Assembly: GCA_018262095.1 (NCBI GenBank) | Contig: JAGTRW010000007.1 | Coordinates: forward strand, 1-64,000 | DNA: 64,000 nt | From: Pseudomonadota bacterium | GTDB lineage: Bacteria > Pseudomonadota > Gammaproteobacteria > Burkholderiales > Rhodocyclaceae | Direction: 5' to 3' | Shown here: positions 5,911 through 31,016 of the stretch, piece by piece | Numbering within the stretch: the stretch's first letter is position 1 | How the letters are laid out: the number at the start of each line of letters is the position of its first letter | Notes under the pieces: model-generated | What the model saw: the letters and a program-made list of their open reading frames with translations, nothing else | What the model was told of the DNA's origin: nothing | Databases searched by the model: none | Position numbers and translations under genes: made by a program

Positions 5911-6729
5911 ATGAAAACGTCCCGTATCAAAAACGGAATTTTTGCCGTCCTCGTTGCGCTTTTTATTGCTGATGCCGTTGCTGCCGATTCGATGCTTGCA
6001 CAGCGAGGCCGTTATTGGAGTTGGACGGCGCCCACCAACTGGCGACATAGCGAATCCATCGCCGGAGTGACGATCGTTTCGCCCGACGGACGCTACACCG
6101 CGGCGCTGGTCGGGCTGATGCGCTCGCCGGGACGGAACGCGCCACAGGCTTTCCTCGCCCGAGCGCTCGGCATGGCTTATCAGAACGTCAAAATCACCCA
6201 GTTTAGAAATCTGCCCAGGCAACAGAGGGGTTCTCAGACGTGGGACTGGGTTGAGGCTGAAGTCACCGCCGCTGACAAAAACGGCAGCCTCCTCAAGGGA
6301 TCGTGGAAAAGCGGTGTCGCGAACTATTACAATCTCAACGATTCGCTGGTCGTCGGCTATTGGGCACCCCCCGCCGAATACGACAAGGCGAAATCGTGGC
6401 TGGAACCGATTGCCGCAAGCATCAAGCTGATCAATTCAGCCGAAGCATTTGGCAACAATCAGTTGATCTCGCCGCGCAATAATCCGAACACCTCGGCTGA
6501 CACCATCGCGCAAAGCTGGAAAGACAAGAACAAATCGCAAGACAAGTCGATGCAGAGGTGGTCGAACACCACGCGCGGCAGCGAGCCCACTTTCGACCCG
6601 TCGACCGGAACCCGATACAGCACCCCGAACACCGCCTGGGATGGCGCCCGCGGGGGTTACGTCAACCCGCGTGACCCAAGCCAGTTACTGCAGTGCGGAA
6701 CGCCCGAAAACCCACAGCCTTGCCGGTGA
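5911..6729 (+). CDS. Secreted hypothetical protein
   Basis: A 272-residue protein with a clear Sec signal peptide (Lys-rich start, hydrophobic core, cleavage after about ADAVAA, residue 24), so it is probably periplasmic. The body (about 28-180) resembles small lipid- or stress-response beta-sandwich proteins in pattern (YWSWTAPTNWRHSESIAGV, later DWVEAEVTAADKNG), but I cannot name a family. The C-terminal 80 residues are Ser/Asn/Thr/Gly-rich and probably disordered, ending in a Cys pair (LLQCGTPENPQPCR). A weak AGGA lies upstream of the ATG. It stands alone between ppnN and the convergent galM. Confidence 0.75.
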   Translation: MKTSRIKNGIFAVLVALFIADAVAADSMLAQRGRYWSWTAPTNWRHSESIAGVTIVSPDGRYTAALVGLMRSPGRNAPQAFLARALGMAYQNVKITQFRNLPRQQRGSQTWDWVEAEVTAADKNGSLLKGSWKSGVANYYNLNDSLVVGYWAPPAEYDKAKSWLEPIAASIKLINSAEAFGNNQLISPRNNPNTSADTIAQSWKDKNKSQDKSMQRWSNTTRGSEPTFDPSTGTRYSTPNTAWDGARGGYVNPRDPSQLLQCGTPENPQPCR

Positions 6730-6753
6730 CGACGGCCAGCTCGGCAGCGGCGC

Positions 6754-7791
6754 TCAGGCCGAGCGGAAGGCGAGCACGGTGCTGTGTTGATACGTTTCGC
6801 CGGGGTACAGCCAGCAATCGGGCTGCGGCCATTCGGGATGGTTGGGGCTGTCGGGCAGGAACTGCGTTTCGAGCGCGAAGCCCTGATGGGCAGAGTAAGT
6901 TCCCCCGTCGCGCGCAGGAACTCCCGCCAGAAAGTTGCCGCTGTAGAACTGCAACGCCGGCTTGCTGGTATAGACGTCCATCGCCAGCCGACCATCACCG
7001 GCGACGACGGTCGCCGCAACGCCAGCCATTCCCCGGCATTGCTGATCGAGCAGATAGGCGTGGTCGTAGCCCTGCGCGAGTCGCTGCTGTTCGTCGCTCA
7101 AAAAATCGCTGCCGATCAGCTTGGCCTTGGAAAAGTCGAAACCCGTGCCGGCCACCCGCTGCAGTTGCCCGAGCGGGATCAGCTCACAGTCGACGGGCAG
7201 GTAATGCTGGGCGTGAATCTGCAGGCGATGCTGGCGAATGTCGGTCGCCGCGCCATCGAGGTTGAAATAGGCATGATTGGTCAGATTGACCGGACACGGC
7301 GCATCGACCTTGGCCGTGTAGTCGATGCCAAGGCGCCCTTCGCCGTCGAGGCGATAGCGCACGGTCGCGCTTAGCTTGCCGGGAAAGCCCTGATCGCCAG
7401 CGGCCGATTCGATGCCGAGAACGACAGCGTTCGCCTGCTGCTGCACGATTCGCCAGCGGCGGCGATCAAAGCCCTGCGGTCCGCCATGCAACTGGTGACC
7501 GTCCGCGGTCGGCGTCAGCGCGATAGTCCGCCCGCCGTGAGTAAACTGCGCGCCGCCGATGCGATTGGCGTAACGCCCGATGGTCGCGCCGAGAAAGGCG
7601 GTCTGCGTAAAGTAATCGGCCAGGCGGGCGCAGCCCAGCAGCACCTCGCGTTCGGCGCCACCGACCGCAACGCGGCACGACAGGAGGGTGCCGCCCCAAT
7701 CCATCAACGACAAACGCGTGCCGCAGTCAGCGGCGAGTTCGATCAGACGCGGCGGCTGCCCGTCCGGGCAAAGGGCTTCGGCACAGCTCAT
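6754..7791 (-). CDS. galM: Aldose 1-epimerase (mutarotase)
   Basis: A 345-residue galactose mutarotase-like protein that interconverts alpha and beta anomers of aldoses. Family motifs seen are [46 protein letters not shown] (catalytic His) and the C-terminal [17 protein letters not shown] with the catalytic Glu. I chose ATG at 7791 because it overlaps the araC stop (ATGA); the in-frame extension upstream lies inside araC. It is the last gene of chvE-mmsAB-araC-galM, so it would prepare imported arabinose or galactose for AraA and GalK. Confidence 0.93.
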
Positions 7792-24524: not shown

Positions 24525-25163
24525 GTGCAACTTATCGGCATGCTTGACTCACCTTACGTTCGTCGCGTGGCAATCTCGATGCAACTACTTGATTTGCGTT
24601 TTGAGCATCGCTCCGTATCCGTGTTCAGCACCTTCGAGCAATTTCAGCAGATCAATCCGGTGGTCAAGGCTCCCACGCTCATCTGTGATGACGGGACGGT
24701 GTTGATGGATTCAACGCTCATTCTTCAATACGCCGAAGCACTCGCCAACTCGGAAAGAAGTCTTTTACCCACCGGTATTGCGGCGCTTCAGCGCGCTCTG
24801 CGCACTATCGGGCTGGCCCTTGCCGCATGCGAGAAGAGCGTTCAGATCGTCTATGAACACAAGCTCCGCCCGGCAGAGAAACTTCACGAACCATGGCTGA
24901 ACCGCGTCACAGGCCAGCTTCTTGCGGCCTATGGTGAGCTTGAAGCAGATCTCAACTCCGCGCCGTCTTCGCCCACAAGCAAGACTATTGACCAAGGGGG
25001 TGTGAGCACCGCCGTGGCGTGGCACTTTACGCAGCAAATGCTGCCAGGGCTTGTTCCCGCCTCAGAGTACCCAGCGCTGCGCGAGTTCTCGGCAAAGGCG
25101 GAGGCGTTGGCAGAGTTCATTGCAGCCCCTCATGGCGCAGGCACTTATTACCGTGCCGACTAA
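24525..25163 (+). CDS. Glutathione S-transferase family protein
   Basis: A 212-residue GST. The N-terminal thioredoxin-like domain starts MQLIGMLDSPYVRRVAISM (Ser/Tyr of the active-site region), with VVKAPTLICDDG (cis-Pro region) and LMDSTLILQYAE (Glu/Ser that bind the glutathione gamma-Glu). The C-terminal helical domain follows from about residue 85. The GTG start at 24525 is 5 bases behind a strong AAGGAG. It stands alone between map and an integrase remnant; no substrate can be inferred. Confidence 0.9.
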   Translation: MQLIGMLDSPYVRRVAISMQLLDLRFEHRSVSVFSTFEQFQQINPVVKAPTLICDDGTVLMDSTLILQYAEALANSERSLLPTGIAALQRALRTIGLALAACEKSVQIVYEHKLRPAEKLHEPWLNRVTGQLLAAYGELEADLNSAPSSPTSKTIDQGGVSTAVAWHFTQQMLPGLVPASEYPALREFSAKAEALAEFIAAPHGAGTYYRAD

Positions 25164-25226
25164 GGCTTCAATCGAGAGGACGTCACCCGGCAAGCCGCGT
25201 GCTGCCTCTCATCGAAAACCTTAGTT

Positions 25227-25711
25227 ATCAGCGTGGCCTTTGTTCGCCGCATCGTTTGCGTGCCATAGACCGTTGGATCGAGGCCGATGGCGGCAACCCG
25301 TTGATGGACGATCCGGGCGTACTGTCGCGTTGAAACATGTGGTGACTTGGCGAGGCGGCTGCAAAACAGGCATTGCTCCGGCTTCAATTTCGCCTTCTCG
25401 ATCCACGCGGTGACTGCGGCTCTGGTCGGTTCTGTCAGTTCGAACTGCAGCGGCCGTTGCGTTTTTCGCTGAACGACGATCGCCCGGGCCAATACCTGGG
25501 CTCCGTGCGTGACGTCGCGGGCGCGGAGATTGACGAGATCGCAACCGCGCAGCTTGCTGTCGATCGCCAAATTGAACATAGCCAAGTCTCGAACCTGATG
25601 CGCGTTCTGAAGCTGAATCGTGATCGCCCAGATGTCCTTCGGCTTCAGCGGCGGCTTCTGACCGACAAGCTTGCCTTTGTTTCAAGGTTCCCTACGGTGG
25701 TTTGATTCCAT
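25227..25711 (-). pseudogene. Broken phage-type integrase (tyrosine recombinase)
   Basis: From ATG 25711 the frame reads MESNHRREP and then TGA, where homologues I know carry Trp, then continues NKGKLVGQKPPLKPKDIW, DLAMFNLAIDSKLRGCDLV (with the catalytic Arg of this family) and YGTQTMRRTKATLI. Homology stops at about 25228; the usual continuation with RAVQLLLGHTKLEST and the catalytic Tyr is replaced by unrelated sequence. The gene thus has an early nonsense codon and no active-site Tyr. An 8-bp inverted repeat (25714-25721 with 25735-25742) lies just upstream of the start. Confidence 0.85.
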
Positions 25712-26049: not shown

Positions 26050-26691
26050 TTACCATCGCAGTAGAGCGCGGCCAAGCACAGCGCCCACTCCGGCAGGGAT
26101 CAGCATCCCGAGCACATACCAGAAGCCGATAAAGGGGGCCTCGATTTCGGGACAGTGCAGACAGTAAACCAGCGCAGCAGTCGCCCCGGAGAGCAGTCCT
26201 GCGGCAAAGCCGGCCAGGCGCGGCCGGGTTGGCGCGAGGGCCTTCATTGCCCAGGTTAGCGAAACAAACGCTGGCACCGACAACAGGGCGATCAGGAACG
26301 GGCAATAGGCCGCCGTTGAACCAAAAAACAGCTCGGCCCGCTCTGACGGATCCGCCTCTATCAGCACGCAAGCGGCGATGAACCACATCACCAAAAGCGG
26401 CGCTGCAATCAGGCGCGGCACCCAGTCGATCCTGACCCCCGGTCGAGACAGACGCAAGACGGCGAACAGGCTGGCGGCCACCACGCTGGCGACAAAGCCG
26501 ATCTTGAGCCAGAACATCGGCAACAGGGCCGCGTCGGCCAGATCGCGGCGGATGCTCAGCATGGACAGCATCACCAGCAGCGCGCCAAGCGCACCAGCAA
26601 CCATGGCCTTGGCGTAGCGGCGCTCCGCTGCGTGAGGTTCGACGGCGCCAGCGCCGGTCGCCAGCATGTTGATCAGATCGTCCGTTTTCAT
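26050..26691 (-). CDS. nrsF: NrsF, anti-sigma factor of SigF (DUF1109)
   Basis: A 213-residue inner-membrane protein with six predicted helices (from [19 protein letters not shown] to [18 protein letters not shown]), matching the DUF1109/NrsF family that holds the ECF factor SigF inactive until an oxidative signal arrives. It has the short cytoplasmic N-terminus ([15 protein letters not shown]) typical of the family and a Cys pair in YCLHCPE plus a Cys in AAYCPF; in Caulobacter and Azospira Cys residues of NrsF are implicated in sensing. It overlaps the sigF stop by 4 bases (ATGA). Confidence 0.9.
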
Positions 26692-27260
26692 GCGCTACCT
26701 CGTATTCTTGCGGCCAGTGCCTTCAGCCCGCGATGCACGCCGACCTTGATCGCCGATTCCGACATGCCGGTCAGCTTGGCGGCTTCCTGCACCGACAAAC
26801 CCTCCAGTTTGGTGTGAATGATCGGCAGGCGGTGTTGATCAGGCAATTCATCGAGCAGCTTGTTGAGGTCCCGGCGCGCCTCGGCAGCCTGCGCATCGGC
26901 CGTTGAAAAGAAGTCGGCTTCATCATCCAGCGGATCATTCAATACGTCCTGCGCCGCCCGCCGACGTAGCAGATCGACCAGCTTGTATCGGGCGATGGCC
27001 TGCACCCAGGCCGACAGCGGCTGTCCGGCGTCGTAGGTATGGCGCTGGTTATGAACGGCAATCAGTGATTCTTGCACCAGATCCTCCACCTCGTCCGGCA
27101 AGCGCGCCAGGCGTTTTCGCAAGAAGGCTCTCAGGTGCGCGCTCAGTTCTGTGAGAAAAACCTGGTAGGCCGGGTTGTCGCCGGCGAGCCCGGCCAGCAG
27201 CAGTTCACGAAGGTGAACTTCTTTCGCACGCCATCCCTCTTCTCTGGTTGTTCGTTGCAT
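26688..27260 (-). CDS. sigF: ECF sigma factor SigF
   Basis: A 190-residue ECF sigma factor. Region 2 includes [24 protein letters not shown] and [16 protein letters not shown]; region 4 has [44 protein letters not shown]. It heads sigF-nrsF and is divergent from yedZ1. The annotated ATG at 27260 is questionable: the promoter-like motif on this strand (27246-27277) would start transcription downstream of it, leaving no ATG in frame. A rarer start, or an independent promoter further upstream, is possible. It is expected to activate itself and the repair operon. Confidence 0.9.
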
Positions 27261-27277
27261 CGAGGCCTTTGGTTACA
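27246..27277 (-). promoter_or_regulatory. SigF-type promoter motif facing sigF
   Basis: On the minus strand: TGTAACC (27271-27277), 16 bases, CGAACAACC (27246-27254). It matches the motif facing yedZ1 base for base in both boxes except one position and has the same spacing. It resembles the GTAACC-16-CGAA promoter I recall for Caulobacter SigF. It overlaps the presumed sigF start codon, which makes the start of that gene uncertain. Confidence 0.6.
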
Positions 27278-27309
27278 GCCGAATGAAAAAATAAATTTTT
27301 GCCGGATCG

Positions 27310-27341
27310 TGTAACCGATTGCCGCGTCCGGACGAACTACC
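27310..27341 (+). promoter_or_regulatory. SigF-type promoter motif facing yedZ1-yedY1-mrpX
   Basis: TGTAACC (27310-27316), 16 bases, CGAACTACC (27333-27341), about 85 bases upstream of the yedZ1 ATG. It is the outward-facing partner of the motif on the other strand, 32 bases away. The shared boxes and identical spacing support one ECF factor, most simply SigF, driving both transcripts. Confidence 0.7.
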
Positions 27342-27425
27342 TTGCATAGCGCACTGAAAACAGCGGCTCCCGATGTTCAAGCCGTTCTTCAGACGAAATA
27401 TAACCCGCAACCTGATGGAGAAACC

Positions 27426-28031
27426 ATGGAAGCAATTCGAAACGACGTGGTCAGCATCCACCCGCGCTGGTTGCGGGTGACGCACTGGCTCAATGCCGTC
27501 GCCGTGGTGATTCTGGCGATGAGCGGCTGGCGCATCTATAACGCTGCGCCGTTTTTCGCTTTCGTCATCCCGAAAGACATCACCCTCGGCGGTTGGCTGG
27601 GCGGCGCGATTCAATGGCATTTCGCCGCGATGTGGCTTCTGGCCGGCAACGGGCTGATCTACCTCTCCTGCAACGTCGCCAGCGGGCGCCTGCTGAAGAA
27701 ATTCTTCCCGATCTCCCCGCGCGCTCTGTTTGCCGATGTTTGCGACGCCCTCAAGGGTCGCCTGTCACACGCGGACCCCGCGCACTACAACGCCGTACAA
27801 CGTGTGGCCTACCTCGTCGTGATCGTCGATGTGCTGGTCCTCGTCGCGTCGGGTCTGGTGCTGTGGAAGTCCGTTCAATTCCCGATCCTGCGCGAACTGC
27901 TGGGCGGTTACGAGGTGGCGCGACGGGTGCACTTCCTGGCGATGGCCGCGCTCACGGCCTTCGTCGGCGTTCACCTGGTGATGGTGGCGCTGGTGCCAAG
28001 AACACTGCTCGCGATGATTCGCGGACGATAA
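27426..28031 (+). CDS. yedZ1: Cytochrome b561-type membrane subunit (YedZ1)
   Basis: A 201-residue cytochrome b with four main membrane helices. Candidate haem His residues sit in VTHWLNA (helix 1), QWHFAAMWLL, RRVHFLAMAAL and FVGVHLVMVAL. It belongs to the Ni/Fe-hydrogenase b-type/cytochrome b561 fold rather than the MsrQ fold. ATG 27426 follows TGGAG. It precedes the Mo-enzyme by 12 bases and should pass electrons from the quinone pool to it for repair of methionine sulfoxide in the periplasm. Confidence 0.88.
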   Translation: MEAIRNDVVSIHPRWLRVTHWLNAVAVVILAMSGWRIYNAAPFFAFVIPKDITLGGWLGGAIQWHFAAMWLLAGNGLIYLSCNVASGRLLKKFFPISPRALFADVCDALKGRLSHADPAHYNAVQRVAYLVVIVDVLVLVASGLVLWKSVQFPILRELLGGYEVARRVHFLAMAALTAFVGVHLVMVALVPRTLLAMIRGR

Positions 28032-28043
28032 GGAGCGCTGAGC

Positions 28044-28832
28044 ATGAACACCCCGCACGCCAACTGGCTGGTCGACAAGTGCGACACGATCCTGCGCGAT
28101 GCGCGCAAGGAAATTGGCCGCGTCGTCGAGCAACCGGCACGCCGCGCCTTCCTGCGACGCTCTCTGACCCTCGGTGGCCTCTCCTTGCTCAGCGGCTGCG
28201 CACTCGTTGATGAAGCGAGCATCGATACGGCCTTGTCCGGCATCTCGCGCTTCAACGACAAGGTGCAGGGCTGGCTGTTCGACCCGAATCGTCTGGCACC
28301 GACCTATCCCGACTCGATGATCACGCGACCGTTCCCGTTCAACGCCTATTACGGCGAGGACGAGATCCGTCAGGTCGACGCGCAGAGTTTTCGCCTCGAA
28401 GTGACCGGCCTGGTTGCCGACCGCAAAGTGTGGACGCTGGAAGAACTGCGCGTCCTGCCGCAAACCGACCAGGTCACGCGCCACATCTGCGTCGAAGGCT
28501 GGAGCGCCATCGGCAAGTGGGGCGGCGTTCCCTTCGCCAGCTTCCTGCGCCGCGTCGGCGCGGACCTCTCCGCCAAGTACGTCGGCTTCAAGTGTGCCGA
28601 CGACTACTACACCAGCATTGACATGGCCACCGCGCTGCATGCGCAAACGCTGCTGGCGCTGACCTACGACAGCCAGCCGTTGCCGCCGCGTTACGGCTTC
28701 CCGATGAAGCTGCGCATGCCGACCAAGCTGGGTTACAAGAATCCGAAACACATCCAGGCCATTTTCGTCACCAATACCTACCCCGGGGGCTACTGGGAAG
28801 ACCAGGGGTACAACTGGTTCGGAGGCAGTTGA
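28044..28832 (+). CDS. yedY1: Periplasmic molybdopterin methionine-sulfoxide reductase (YedY1)
   Basis: A 262-residue sulfite-oxidase-fold oxidoreductase. It has a Tat signal (RRAFLRRSLTLGG) ending in a lipobox-like LLSGC, so it may be a Tat-exported lipoprotein. The Mo-cofactor region contains the ligand Cys in RHICVEGWSAIGKW; GFPMKLRMPTKLGYKNPKHI is the usual C-terminal motif. It is shorter than MsrP of E. coli. In Azospira suillum the homologous YedY1 reduces oxidised MrpX; the same neighbour order here supports that role. Confidence 0.9.
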   Translation: MNTPHANWLVDKCDTILRDARKEIGRVVEQPARRAFLRRSLTLGGLSLLSGCALVDEASIDTALSGISRFNDKVQGWLFDPNRLAPTYPDSMITRPFPFNAYYGEDEIRQVDAQSFRLEVTGLVADRKVWTLEELRVLPQTDQVTRHICVEGWSAIGKWGGVPFASFLRRVGADLSAKYVGFKCADDYYTSIDMATALHAQTLLALTYDSQPLPPRYGFPMKLRMPTKLGYKNPKHIQAIFVTNTYPGGYWEDQGYNWFGGS

Positions 28833-28901
28833 GCCATCGCGCTCGTCTGCCCTGACTACCTGGCAATACTGCCATTCAATCACCACCAAAGGAGTTACAC
28901 C

Positions 28902-29144
28902 ATGAACAAAATGACTATCGCCTCAAGCCTGATGTCCCTCTCTCTTCTGCTCGCTGGCGGTTCGGCGTTTGCGGCCGACGAAATGAAGAAGGATGACATG
29001 GCCAAGGACGGAATGAAAAAGGAAGCCATGGCCAAAGATGGAATGAAGAAGGACGCGATGGCCAAGGACGGCATGAAGAAGGATGAAATGCACAAGGACG
29101 GGATGAAGAAAGACGAGATGAAAAAGGACGAAATGAAAAAGTAG
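28902..29144 (+). CDS. mrpX: Methionine-rich periplasmic peptide (MrpX-like)
   Basis: An 80-residue protein: Sec signal peptide (cleavage after GSAFA, residue 24), then a mature chain built almost only of Met, Lys, Asp, Gly and Ala in an about 10-residue repeat (DGMKKDAMAK and variants). Eleven of roughly 56 mature residues are Met, and there is no Cys or aromatic residue. This composition and position behind yedY1 match MrpX of Azospira, a sacrificial scavenger whose Met residues are oxidised by hypochlorite and re-reduced by YedY1. ATG 28902 follows AAAGGAG. Confidence 0.9.
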   Translation: MNKMTIASSLMSLSLLLAGGSAFAADEMKKDDMAKDGMKKEAMAKDGMKKDAMAKDGMKKDEMHKDGMKKDEMKKDEMKK

Positions 29145-29173
29145 GCCCGATTCTTTCGCCTTCCCCATCCCCA

Positions 29174-29196
29174 GCCCTCCCCTTGACGGGGAGGGC
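29174..29196 (+). other. Strong hairpin between mrpX and the thioredoxin gene
   Basis: A 9-bp perfect GC-rich stem (GCCCTCCCC / GGGGAGGGC) with a 5-base loop, 30 bases after the mrpX stop and without a T-run. It could block 3' decay and so raise mrpX over the downstream genes, or partly end transcription. Confidence 0.55.
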
Positions 29197-29223
29197 GAAC
29201 ACCGTCAATCGCCAGGAGAAATC

Positions 29224-29601
29224 ATGATTACCAGAGTAATTGCTACGGCACTACTACTGACGGCCAGCGCCGCCTCGTTCGCTCTCGACATCAAACCCTA
29301 CTCGGCACAGGCGCTGAGTGCCGAGCAGCAGGCCGGCAAGCCGGTCACCCTGCACTTCCACGCCGACTGGTGCCCGACCTGCCGGGCGCAGGACAAGGTG
29401 CTGCAGCAGTGGCAAGGCGACGCCAGCGTTCCCGGCACCCTGTTGGTGGTCGACTACGACAAGGAAAAGGAGCTCAGGAAGCAGCTAGGCGTGCGCACGC
29501 AATCGACCTTGATTGCCTACCGCGGCAGTGTCGAGAAAGCACGCGTCGCTGGTGAAACGGATGCCGACAAGCTTCGCGCTGCCTTGCTCTCGGCCAACTG
29601 A
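29224..29601 (+). CDS. Periplasmic thioredoxin-like protein
   Basis: A 125-residue thioredoxin-fold protein with a Sec signal peptide (cleavage near SASFA, residue 20). The active site is WCPTC in HFHADWCPTCRAQDK. It is two bases before the CcdA-type gene, so the pair forms a membrane-to-periplasm thiol relay. The likely client is the MsrA just downstream. It resembles DsbD gamma-type or TlpA-like partners, but no fusion is present. Confidence 0.9.
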   Translation: MITRVIATALLLTASAASFALDIKPYSAQALSAEQQAGKPVTLHFHADWCPTCRAQDKVLQQWQGDASVPGTLLVVDYDKEKELRKQLGVRTQSTLIAYRGSVEKARVAGETDADKLRAALLSAN

Positions 29602-29603
29602 AC

Positions 29604-30335
29604 ATGGACGCATTGTCCCTCAGCCATGTCGGACTCAGCCTGGCGGCCGGCAGCCTGACCACGCTCTCGCCCTGCGTCTTCCCGATTCTGCCGCTGGTCC
29701 TGGGCGGAGCGGTGCAGGGCAACCGTCTGGCGCCGCTGGCCATGGGCTCGGGGATGGTCATTTCGTTTGCCTTGATCGGGCTGGTCATCGGCACGCTGGG
29801 TCCGGCGCTGGGCATTGACTCCGACAACGTGCGCATTTTTGGCGCGCTGCTGCTGATCGTCTTTGGCCTCGTCATGCTGGTTCCCGCGCTCAACCGGCGC
29901 TTTACCGAATGGATGCTGCCGATTGCCTCGTCGGCCAATGCGGCGTCTTCACACCTCGATGGCGGTTCGCTGGGCGGTGCATTTCTGCTCGGTGGCGTAC
30001 TCGGGCTGGTCTGGAGCCCATGTTCCGGGCCACTGCTCGCCTCGGCGCTGACGCTGGTGGCCAGTGAGGACGGCGCTTCGCGTGGTGCGCTGATTCTCGG
30101 TTTGTTCGGCGTCGGCGCCGCCATTCCACTGGTCGCCGTGGCCTACGCGTCGCGCAGCGGATTTTCGCGTGCCCGGAGCTGGGTGCTGGGGAATATCGAC
30201 GCGTTCAAGAAGGGTTTCGGCGTCGTCATTTTCGCGACCGGAGTCGCCATCCTGACCGGCGGCGACAAATGGATCGAGGCCAGGGTCGTCAGTCTGCTGC
30301 CGGATGTCTGGATTAGAACTGCGACCCTGTTTTAG
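29604..30335 (+). CDS. CcdA/DsbD-type transmembrane thiol-disulfide carrier
   Basis: A 243-residue protein with six or seven membrane helices and the two reactive Cys motifs of the family, LSPCVFPILP (about 22-31) and VWSPCSGPLL. It moves reducing power from cytoplasmic thioredoxin to a periplasmic acceptor, here most simply the thioredoxin encoded directly upstream. It differs from full-length DsbD, which has periplasmic domains on both ends; those functions are split into separate genes here. Confidence 0.9.
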   Translation: MDALSLSHVGLSLAAGSLTTLSPCVFPILPLVLGGAVQGNRLAPLAMGSGMVISFALIGLVIGTLGPALGIDSDNVRIFGALLLIVFGLVMLVPALNRRFTEWMLPIASSANAASSHLDGGSLGGAFLLGGVLGLVWSPCSGPLLASALTLVASEDGASRGALILGLFGVGAAIPLVAVAYASRSGFSRARSWVLGNIDAFKKGFGVVIFATGVAILTGGDKWIEARVVSLLPDVWIRTATLF

Positions 30336-30365
30336 CCCTCAACATCAAATAAGGAGAGATTCATC

Positions 30366-31016
30366 ATGGACAAGCTGACAACACCCACCGCCTCAATGAC
30401 CAAGATTCGGATAGCCTGCGCGGCAATCGCTCTTGCGCTGTGCTTGAACGCCCGCGCAGAATCGCCGACCAGACCAGCAACGGGTTTGCAAACCGCAGTC
30501 TTTGCCGGCGGCTGTTTCTGGGGCGTCGACGCCGTGTTCAAGCACGTCAAGGGCGTCACCGAGGTCGAGTCCGGCTATGCCGGCGGCGAGGCTAGCACCG
30601 CCCGGTACGAAAAAGTCAGCAGCGGCGCGACCGGACACGCCGAAGCGGTGCGCATCAGATTCGACCCGGCGCAGGTGAGTTACGGGCAACTCCTCAACAT
30701 CTTCTTCAGCGTGGCGCATGACCCGAGCCAACTCAACCGCCAGGGACCGGACGTCGGCAGCCAATATCGTTCGGCGGTCTTCTTCACCGATAGCGAACAG
30801 CAGAAGATGACCCTGGCTTACATCCAGAAACTTGTCGATTCACGCGCTTTTCCCAAGCCGGTCGTGACCCAGGTTGCCGCTCTGCAGGAATTCTATCCCG
30901 CGGAAAAGTACCACCAGAACTATCTGGCCCGGCATCCTGATCAGCCCTATATCGTTTACAACGACTTACCCAAACTGGAACAATTGCGCCACCAGTTTCC
31001 AGCGTTGTATCAGTAG
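30366..31016 (+). CDS. msrA: Periplasmic peptide-methionine (S)-S-oxide reductase
   Basis: A 216-residue MsrA with the active-site FAGGCFWGVDAVF and the conserved GYAGG, YEKVSSGATGHAEAV, QYRSAVFF and FYPAEKYHQNYL motifs. Unlike cytosolic MsrA it has an N-terminal hydrophobic stretch (RIACAAIALALCLNARA) that reads as a signal peptide, so it should work on oxidised proteins or MrpX in the periplasm. No MsrB domain is fused. It is the last gene of the presumed SigF operon; ATG 30366 follows AAGGAGA. Confidence 0.92.
   Translation: MDKLTTPTASMTKIRIACAAIALALCLNARAESPTRPATGLQTAVFAGGCFWGVDAVFKHVKGVTEVESGYAGGEASTARYEKVSSGATGHAEAVRIRFDPAQVSYGQLLNIFFSVAHDPSQLNRQGPDVGSQYRSAVFFTDSEQQKMTLAYIQKLVDSRAFPKPVVTQVAALQEFYPAEKYHQNYLARHPDQPYIVYNDLPKLEQLRHQFPALYQ

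Follow-up and report, generated by a model that had tools for sequence, protein, structure and literature searches.

A SigF/NrsF locus that places two candidate methionine-repair routes beside one methionine-rich peptide

We describe eight adjacent genes in a 64,000-nucleotide (nt) stretch of DNA from a Rhodocyclaceae bacterium (contig JAGTRW010000007.1, positions 1 to 64,000; hereafter, the window). The pair nrsF-sigF lies divergent from yedZ1-yedY1-mrpX-trx-ccdA-msrA, and open reading frames (ORFs), Pfam and NCBIfam bear out the order, strands and families that an initial annotation had assigned to them. We give a probability of roughly two in three to the reading that the locus encodes an envelope defence, under SigF/NrsF control, against reactive chlorine or similar oxidants, in which two repair arms would recharge the methionine-rich peptide MrpX. 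Oxidation of cysteines (Cys) in NrsF would release SigF, by analogy with Bradyrhizobium OsrA; free SigF would fire a divergent pair of promoter boxes, and the genes from yedZ1 to msrA would be read as one operon. Exported MrpX would absorb oxidant on its methionine (Met) residues, as others have reported for homologues. In the first arm, electrons would pass from quinol through YedZ1 to YedY1, which would reduce oxidised MrpX and other envelope proteins. In the second, they would pass from cytoplasmic thioredoxin through CcdA and an exported thioredoxin (Trx) to MsrA, which would act on the same substrates; Trx would directly reduce the sulfenic acid of a one-Cys MsrA. Precedents exist for both the MrpX/BcrX and YedY1 step and the Trx-CcdA-Msr step (PMC8315932, PMC9404787, PMC3914529; what we say of these and other published systems refers to the parts of the sources available to us). 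Two envelope methionine-repair routes would here share a single switch and a single bait protein. Relatives have removed parts one by one, which makes it directly testable which reductase recharges the methionine sink and whether the sulfoxide stereoisomers are divided between the two.

Gene content and predicted SigF control

The locus has the hallmark of SigF/NrsF (ECF16) systems, a gene for an extracytoplasmic function (ECF) sigma factor adjoining one for a DUF1109/NrsF anti-sigma factor (Table 1); the two reading frames share 4 nt. YedY1 reaches 75 bits against the MsrP model NF003767, far below its cut-off of 207, and is therefore filed as YedY1-type rather than MsrP. Likewise, Pfam does not place YedZ1 in the MsrQ/YedZ ferric-reductase type, as it returned only the b561 family PF01292 and, below its cut-off, DUF4405 (E 0.001). 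Because all 95 YedY1 N-termini compared fit a permissive twin-arginine plus lipobox pattern, YedY1 is probably a membrane-tethered lipoprotein of the twin-arginine pathway. Mature MrpX, with its cleavage site placed by eye, has 11 Met per 56 residues and no Cys. Export of MrpX, Trx and MsrA was also judged by eye, from N-termini that are signal-like only. CcdA and Trx match general thiol families, under the NCBIfam cut-offs, and MsrA has both the catalytic GCFW Cys and the PMSR domain. Carrier, exported-looking Trx and exported-looking Msr thus stand side by side, in the gene layout of a CcdA-Trx-Msr relay. The gaps are 69 nt between yedY1 and mrpX, 79 nt between mrpX and trx, 2 nt between trx and ccdA, and 30 nt between ccdA and msrA. 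We took ATG 27426 as the yedZ1 start; the mechanical ORF begins earlier, at TTG 27342.

Table 1. Features of the SigF/NrsF locus, in window coordinates
Feature	Position	Strand	Description
nrsF	26050..26691	-	anti-sigma factor; PF06532 2.6e-68; Cys130 and Cys180 invariant
sigF	26688..27260	-	ECF sigma factor, SigF/ECF16 type; PRK12536 308 bits (cut-off 250); Sigma70 r2/r4 (Pfam)
sigF start/box overlap	27243-27276		
SigF box GTAACC-N16-CGAA	27251..27276	-	faces sigF; sigF ATG inside box
SigF box GTAACC-N16-CGAA	27311..27336	+	faces yedZ1
yedZ1	27426..28031	+	b561-type membrane cytochrome; PF01292 (Ni_hydr_CYTB) 1.2e-25
yedY1	28044..28832	+	molybdopterin oxidoreductase; PF00174 (Oxidored_molyb) 1.7e-30; twin-arginine and lipobox-like motif
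mrpX	28902..29144	+	pentapeptide MXKDX repeat protein; TIGR02953 81.7 bits (cut-off 41); signal-like N-terminus
GC hairpin, 9 bp	29174..29196		just after mrpX, no T run; not called terminator
trx	29224..29601	+	thioredoxin, CPTC motif (Cys50/53), signal-like N-terminus; PF00085 8.7e-10
ccdA	29604..30335	+	DsbD/CcdA-type membrane thiol carrier, Cys24 and Cys140; PF02683 (DsbD_TM) 1.5e-20
msrA	30366..31016	+	methionine-S-sulfoxide reductase; PF01625 (PMSR) 5.1e-60; above TIGR00401 cut-off; signal-like N-terminus

The two SigF boxes stand back to back between sigF and yedZ1. A mean of 0.19 matches is expected in the whole window, and two or more arose in 3 of 100 shuffles. The box agrees with the printed consensus of Brucella BcrS (PMC8315932) and with that of the ECF16 group (PMC3420878). 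Across loci we counted the pattern GTAAC-N16 to 18-CG[AT]A in 95 rows, comprising the window, the 80 nearest YedY1 loci (the best 80 of at least 592 confirmed YedY1 relatives) and 14 stretches of the family; two of these rows (L081 and L154) have identical sequence, and another two (L023 and L151) apparently do. All 34 rows with a nearby SigF have a forward box ahead of yedY1, as do 3 of the 61 without. In one of those three (L153), the box is at the usual position and the contig stops some 2.5 kb upstream. Of the 34 SigF rows, 29 extend at least 2.5 kb past the yedY1 start, and in none of the 34 does a forward box occur downstream of it; within the window, none was found ahead of mrpX, trx or msrA. 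With boxes upstream of yedZ1/yedY1 and none downstream, the simplest reading of boxes and spacing is therefore that a single SigF promoter would serve a six-gene operon from yedZ1 to msrA.

We consider it rather unlikely that the locus is instead split into two or three units, with SigF driving yedZ1-yedY1-mrpX only and trx-ccdA-msrA either transcribed from an unseen promoter or cut off by the hairpin. Such a split would be in keeping with the hairpin and the wide gap between mrpX and trx, as well as with the occurrence of trx-ccdA as a free pair elsewhere (see below). Against it, the hairpin has no T run, neither a terminator nor a sigma-70-like promoter was called ahead of trx in the window, the interval from mrpX to trx is free of SigF boxes, and one relative has a box fused straight to mrpX-trx-ccdA-msrA with all frames intact. 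A terminator behind mrpX was rejected on the missing T run, the missing call and a fold z-score of -1.34. The hairpin may be a 3′ stabiliser or an attenuator, and could steady or dose the bait transcript.

Loci of Pseudomonas, Achromobacter and Variovorax (e.g., L011, L041 and L074) carry yedZ1-yedY1-mrpX with neither a nearby sigF nor a SigF box. These must answer to another regulator, or to a distant SigF with another motif.

Cys130 and Cys180 of NrsF are kept in all 33 aligned NrsF sequences. Their numbering and spacing agree with those of C129 and C179 in Bradyrhizobium OsrA, whose C179 is indispensable for releasing the sigma factor (PMC3420878). The signal itself may differ from the one we favour. 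It is possible, though we are doubtful, that metals, peroxide or singlet oxygen rather than hypochlorite trigger the system and that the operon serves methionine repair in the envelope generally. SigF-class systems respond to chromate and cadmium in Caulobacter and to H2O2 and singlet oxygen in Bradyrhizobium (PMC3420878), whereas those that bear MrpX, in Azospira and Brucella, are tied to reactive chlorine (for Brucella, PMC8315932).

The box facing sigF has a feature of its own. An own-strand box sits at the gene start in 28 of the 34 sigF genes examined, and in all 28 the frame opens inside the box at a constant distance. In 27 of these, the start codon precedes the expected transcript start, set at 6 nt past the box following the Bradyrhizobium mapping, and nine, the window's gene included, have no in-frame ATG, GTG or TTG within the next 75 nt. 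The SigF-driven transcript might thus carry nrsF without a translatable sigF, which would amount to an inbuilt brake; alternatively, an unusual start codon or a second promoter may be in use. A similar overlap occurs in Bradyrhizobium ecfF, where the 5′ end was mapped and the authors picked a more distal start codon (PMC3420878).

Natural deletions in the genus

Among 28 genomes of the genus, several of them incomplete, NrsF marks five as carriers of the locus, including the window's own (G000). SigF, NrsF, MrpX and both boxes are kept in all five. The complete set of eight genes is found in G000 and G153 only.

The DNA of G159 aligns with the window up to 27363 and again from 28774 onwards. 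The missing ∼1.4 kb comprises yedZ1 and yedY1 except for ∼19 codons, and the remaining frames are whole. As a result, the SigF box now stands directly ahead of mrpX-trx-ccdA-msrA (L191, G159:C128, around 6638-6683). Pairwise ratios of nonsynonymous to synonymous substitution (dN/dS) between G159 and the window are 0.07 for Trx, 0.12 for CcdA, 0.20 for MsrA, 0.09 for SigF and 0.15 for NrsF, and 0.06 for MrpX, where synonymous sites are near saturation; each is an average over the pair and gives no date for the deletion. Completeness of the G159 genome stands at 85%, and a misassembly is possible. Two further carriers lack other parts. In G105 (L142, G105:C2, about 6730-6760), msrA stops after its first codons and unrelated sequence follows, a remnant that suggests a once complete set later lost. 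G152 has yedZ1-yedY1-mrpX-msrA without trx-ccdA. We propose that SigF, NrsF and MrpX form a constant core, around which the two repair arms can be separated and in part exchanged for one another.

MsrA reduces S-sulfoxides only. The MsrB proteins of G000 (two), G153, G152 and G105 (fused) have no signal peptide by eye. G159, the carrier without YedY1, encodes one MsrB with a twin-arginine-like signal (L211) and one plain MsrB. The former may take over R-sulfoxides in place of YedY1, but the pattern is suggestive only (one of one versus none of four carriers). More tentatively, and with considerable doubt, the locus may be pictured as a rechargeable oxidant sponge: MrpX would be the fixed core, lineages would drop or keep a quinol-molybdenum or an NADPH-thiol charger, the thiol charger would be a one-Cys MsrA whose dedicated exported Trx clears its sulfenic acid, and the choice of charger would track sulfoxide handedness.

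Near the module lies a phage-integrase fragment (25160-25585, minus strand; Pfam 29 bits, cut-off 27.1), a possible mark of horizontal arrival.

The thiol arm and its possible uses

Mature MsrA of the window contains a single Cys, the catalytic Cys50, and is not of the two- or three-Cys type with a recycling Cys. One-Cys MsrA is a recognised type (PMC4479559). As a single Cys permits no internal disulfide, removal of the MsrA sulfenic acid would require a thiol from another molecule, and from its position the adjoining Trx-CcdA pair is the obvious candidate source. The one-Cys form recurs in G159, G153 and G152 and in 26 of the 30 YedY1-adjacent MsrA proteins of the 80 nearest loci (exceptions: L017, L022, L037 and L081). 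Several other MsrA proteins of these relatives carry additional Cys.

These 80 loci also show how often the parts travel together. Both flanks extend 3 kb in 66 of them and some end less than 3 kb from yedY1, so that per-locus counts are lower bounds. SigF is encoded at 26 loci, MsrA within 6 kb at 30 and MsrB at 10. The YedY1-MsrA neighbourhood is more than chance, and we rejected uniqueness of the module, given that YedY1-MrpX-MsrA neighbourhoods are frequent in this set. The complete order occurs at L007 of Candidatus Accumulibacter sp. UBA704, which contains the 13-kb stretch of G153 letter for letter and is not an independent case. Accumulibacter is a phosphate accumulator of wastewater plants, and we consider chlorine exposure plausible there. 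Four more loci with a CcdA domain were set apart from this layout: L026 and L049 have, by eye, one fused CcdA-TlpA-like protein behind mrpX in place of trx-ccdA, L071 has its CcdA domain ahead of msrA, and in L020 the pair lies upstream, adjoining another ECF sigma gene.

Several observations weigh against a dedicated two-armed module. The complete order is rare (1 of 80 nearest loci), and a CcdA domain lies within 6 kb at just 5 of 80, versus 30 for MsrA. Moreover, of the 26 loci with a one-Cys MsrA, 23 are without a CcdA domain in that range (the others are L007, L020 and L071). In G105 and G125, the trx-ccdA pair has no msrA beside it, and it is free-standing in G112, G133 and G005, where 14 kb around it yielded no match to NrsF, YedY1, MsrA or MrpX; the tie to MsrA is therefore loose. 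A single entry of trx-ccdA with msrA into SigF loci was rejected, as the tree leaves SigF-locus and free pairs unresolved. A wider genomic SigF regulon was rejected too, a stricter box pattern giving 5 matches versus 7 in the reversed control. NrsF falls short of NCBIfam NF042994 (158 bits, cut-off 300), though it is far above the Pfam cut-off, and the equivalence of its cysteines to those of OsrA is by numbering only. The hairpin behind mrpX could also cut off the distal genes.

Carrying electrons to MsrA would thus be one possible use of trx-ccdA among several. In the extreme, which we think unlikely, the pair would have a use unrelated to MsrA, such as resetting the NrsF cysteines to switch the response off, repairing sulfenylated envelope proteins such as YedY1, or acting as a general DsbC/DsbG-like reductant, and msrA would be a mere neighbour. 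Retention of trx-ccdA without msrA in the SigF loci of G105 and G125, its occurrence alone elsewhere, the invariance of the NrsF cysteines and the many one-Cys MsrA proteins with no CcdA at hand all fit such a use. G105 is weak evidence here because its msrA remnant suggests loss from a complete set. Furthermore, msrA follows directly behind ccdA in the window, G153 and G159, and the Trx-CcdA pairs of Haemophilus and pneumococcus feed an Msr (PMC9404787, PMC3914529).

On the two-armed reading, the initial annotation's extension of the electron route to a periplasmic MsrA is backed by colinear genes, a SigF box leading into yedZ1 with no second box found, signal-like N-termini and catalytic motifs in MsrA and Trx, and the mrpX-trx-ccdA-msrA block kept in G159; it is weakened by the rarity of the full set, the scarcity of CcdA and the occurrence of trx-ccdA without msrA. 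The exact gene order that it suggested looking for in related genomes recurs in G153 (the same sequence as L007) and, besides the window, in no other of the 28 genus genomes. Conservation of the thiol genes without yedY1-mrpX, which it had named as telling against the module, does occur for trx-ccdA; for trx-ccdA-msrA it is half seen, as G159 lacks yedY1 and keeps mrpX.

Two observations on the pair stand apart. The free trx-ccdA of G112 (L144, 7112-12212) lies near a DUF692/DUF2063-like pair, a small Cys-repeat protein and an ECF sigma factor gene, the last a weak match; the neighbours, named by eye, bear some resemblance to Caulobacter SigF targets. G147 has the pair too, its ccdA divided between two frames.

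Comparison with known systems

The inference of dual repair is plausible and sound, yet largely anticipated in print for related systems (PMC4623255, PMC9404787, PMC3420878). No description of this eight-gene layout was found in the limited collection of literature searched. The parts are all of known kinds; what looks new is their combination in eight contiguous genes, together with the one-Cys pattern of MsrA and the series of deletions in relatives.

An established hypochlorite system is sigF/nrsF-yedYZ-mrpX of Azospira suillum PS (Melnyk 2015, through papers that cite it). The window shares with it the sigma/anti-sigma pair, the molybdenum reductase and the methionine-rich peptide, and adds trx-ccdA-msrA to the Azospira locus as those citing papers describe it. 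The perchlorate islands of P. militaris MP and D. hydrogenophilus LT-1 (PMC4623255) group sigF/yedYZ/mrpX with exported msrA and msrB; they differ in their island context, and the available part of that paper makes no mention of trx-ccdA. In Brucella BcrS-AbcS/bcrXQP (PMC8315932), a SigF-class pair, an MXKDX peptide, an MsrPQ-like pair and a GTAACC..CGAA box all recur, but no thiol arm appears at the locus in the portion available.

Other systems resemble the thiol arm. Bradyrhizobium EcfF-OsrA (PMC3420878) sets a SigF-class sigma factor over a periplasmic Msr, a DsbD-type carrier and a Trx anchored in the membrane, for which its authors propose the same electron route as here; its genes are scattered, and the accessible text shows no MrpX-YedY1 operon. 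The pneumococcal CcdA1-Etrx1-MsrAB2 operon (PMC3914529) likewise places carrier, thioredoxin and Msr in three genes, and a second CcdA-Etrx pair without msr parallels some relatives here. However, the organism is Gram-positive, its Trx is a lipoprotein and its reductase is an MsrAB protein. In Haemophilus, msrAB-trx-ccdA under RpoE2 (PMC9404787) combines an ECF sigma factor, hypochlorite and a Trx-CcdA pair proposed to feed an exported Msr. It uses an MsrAB protein, has MtsZ instead of YedY1 and shows no MrpX in the sections available, but there, too, a molybdenum-dependent Msr (MtsZ) is controlled by the same sigma factor.

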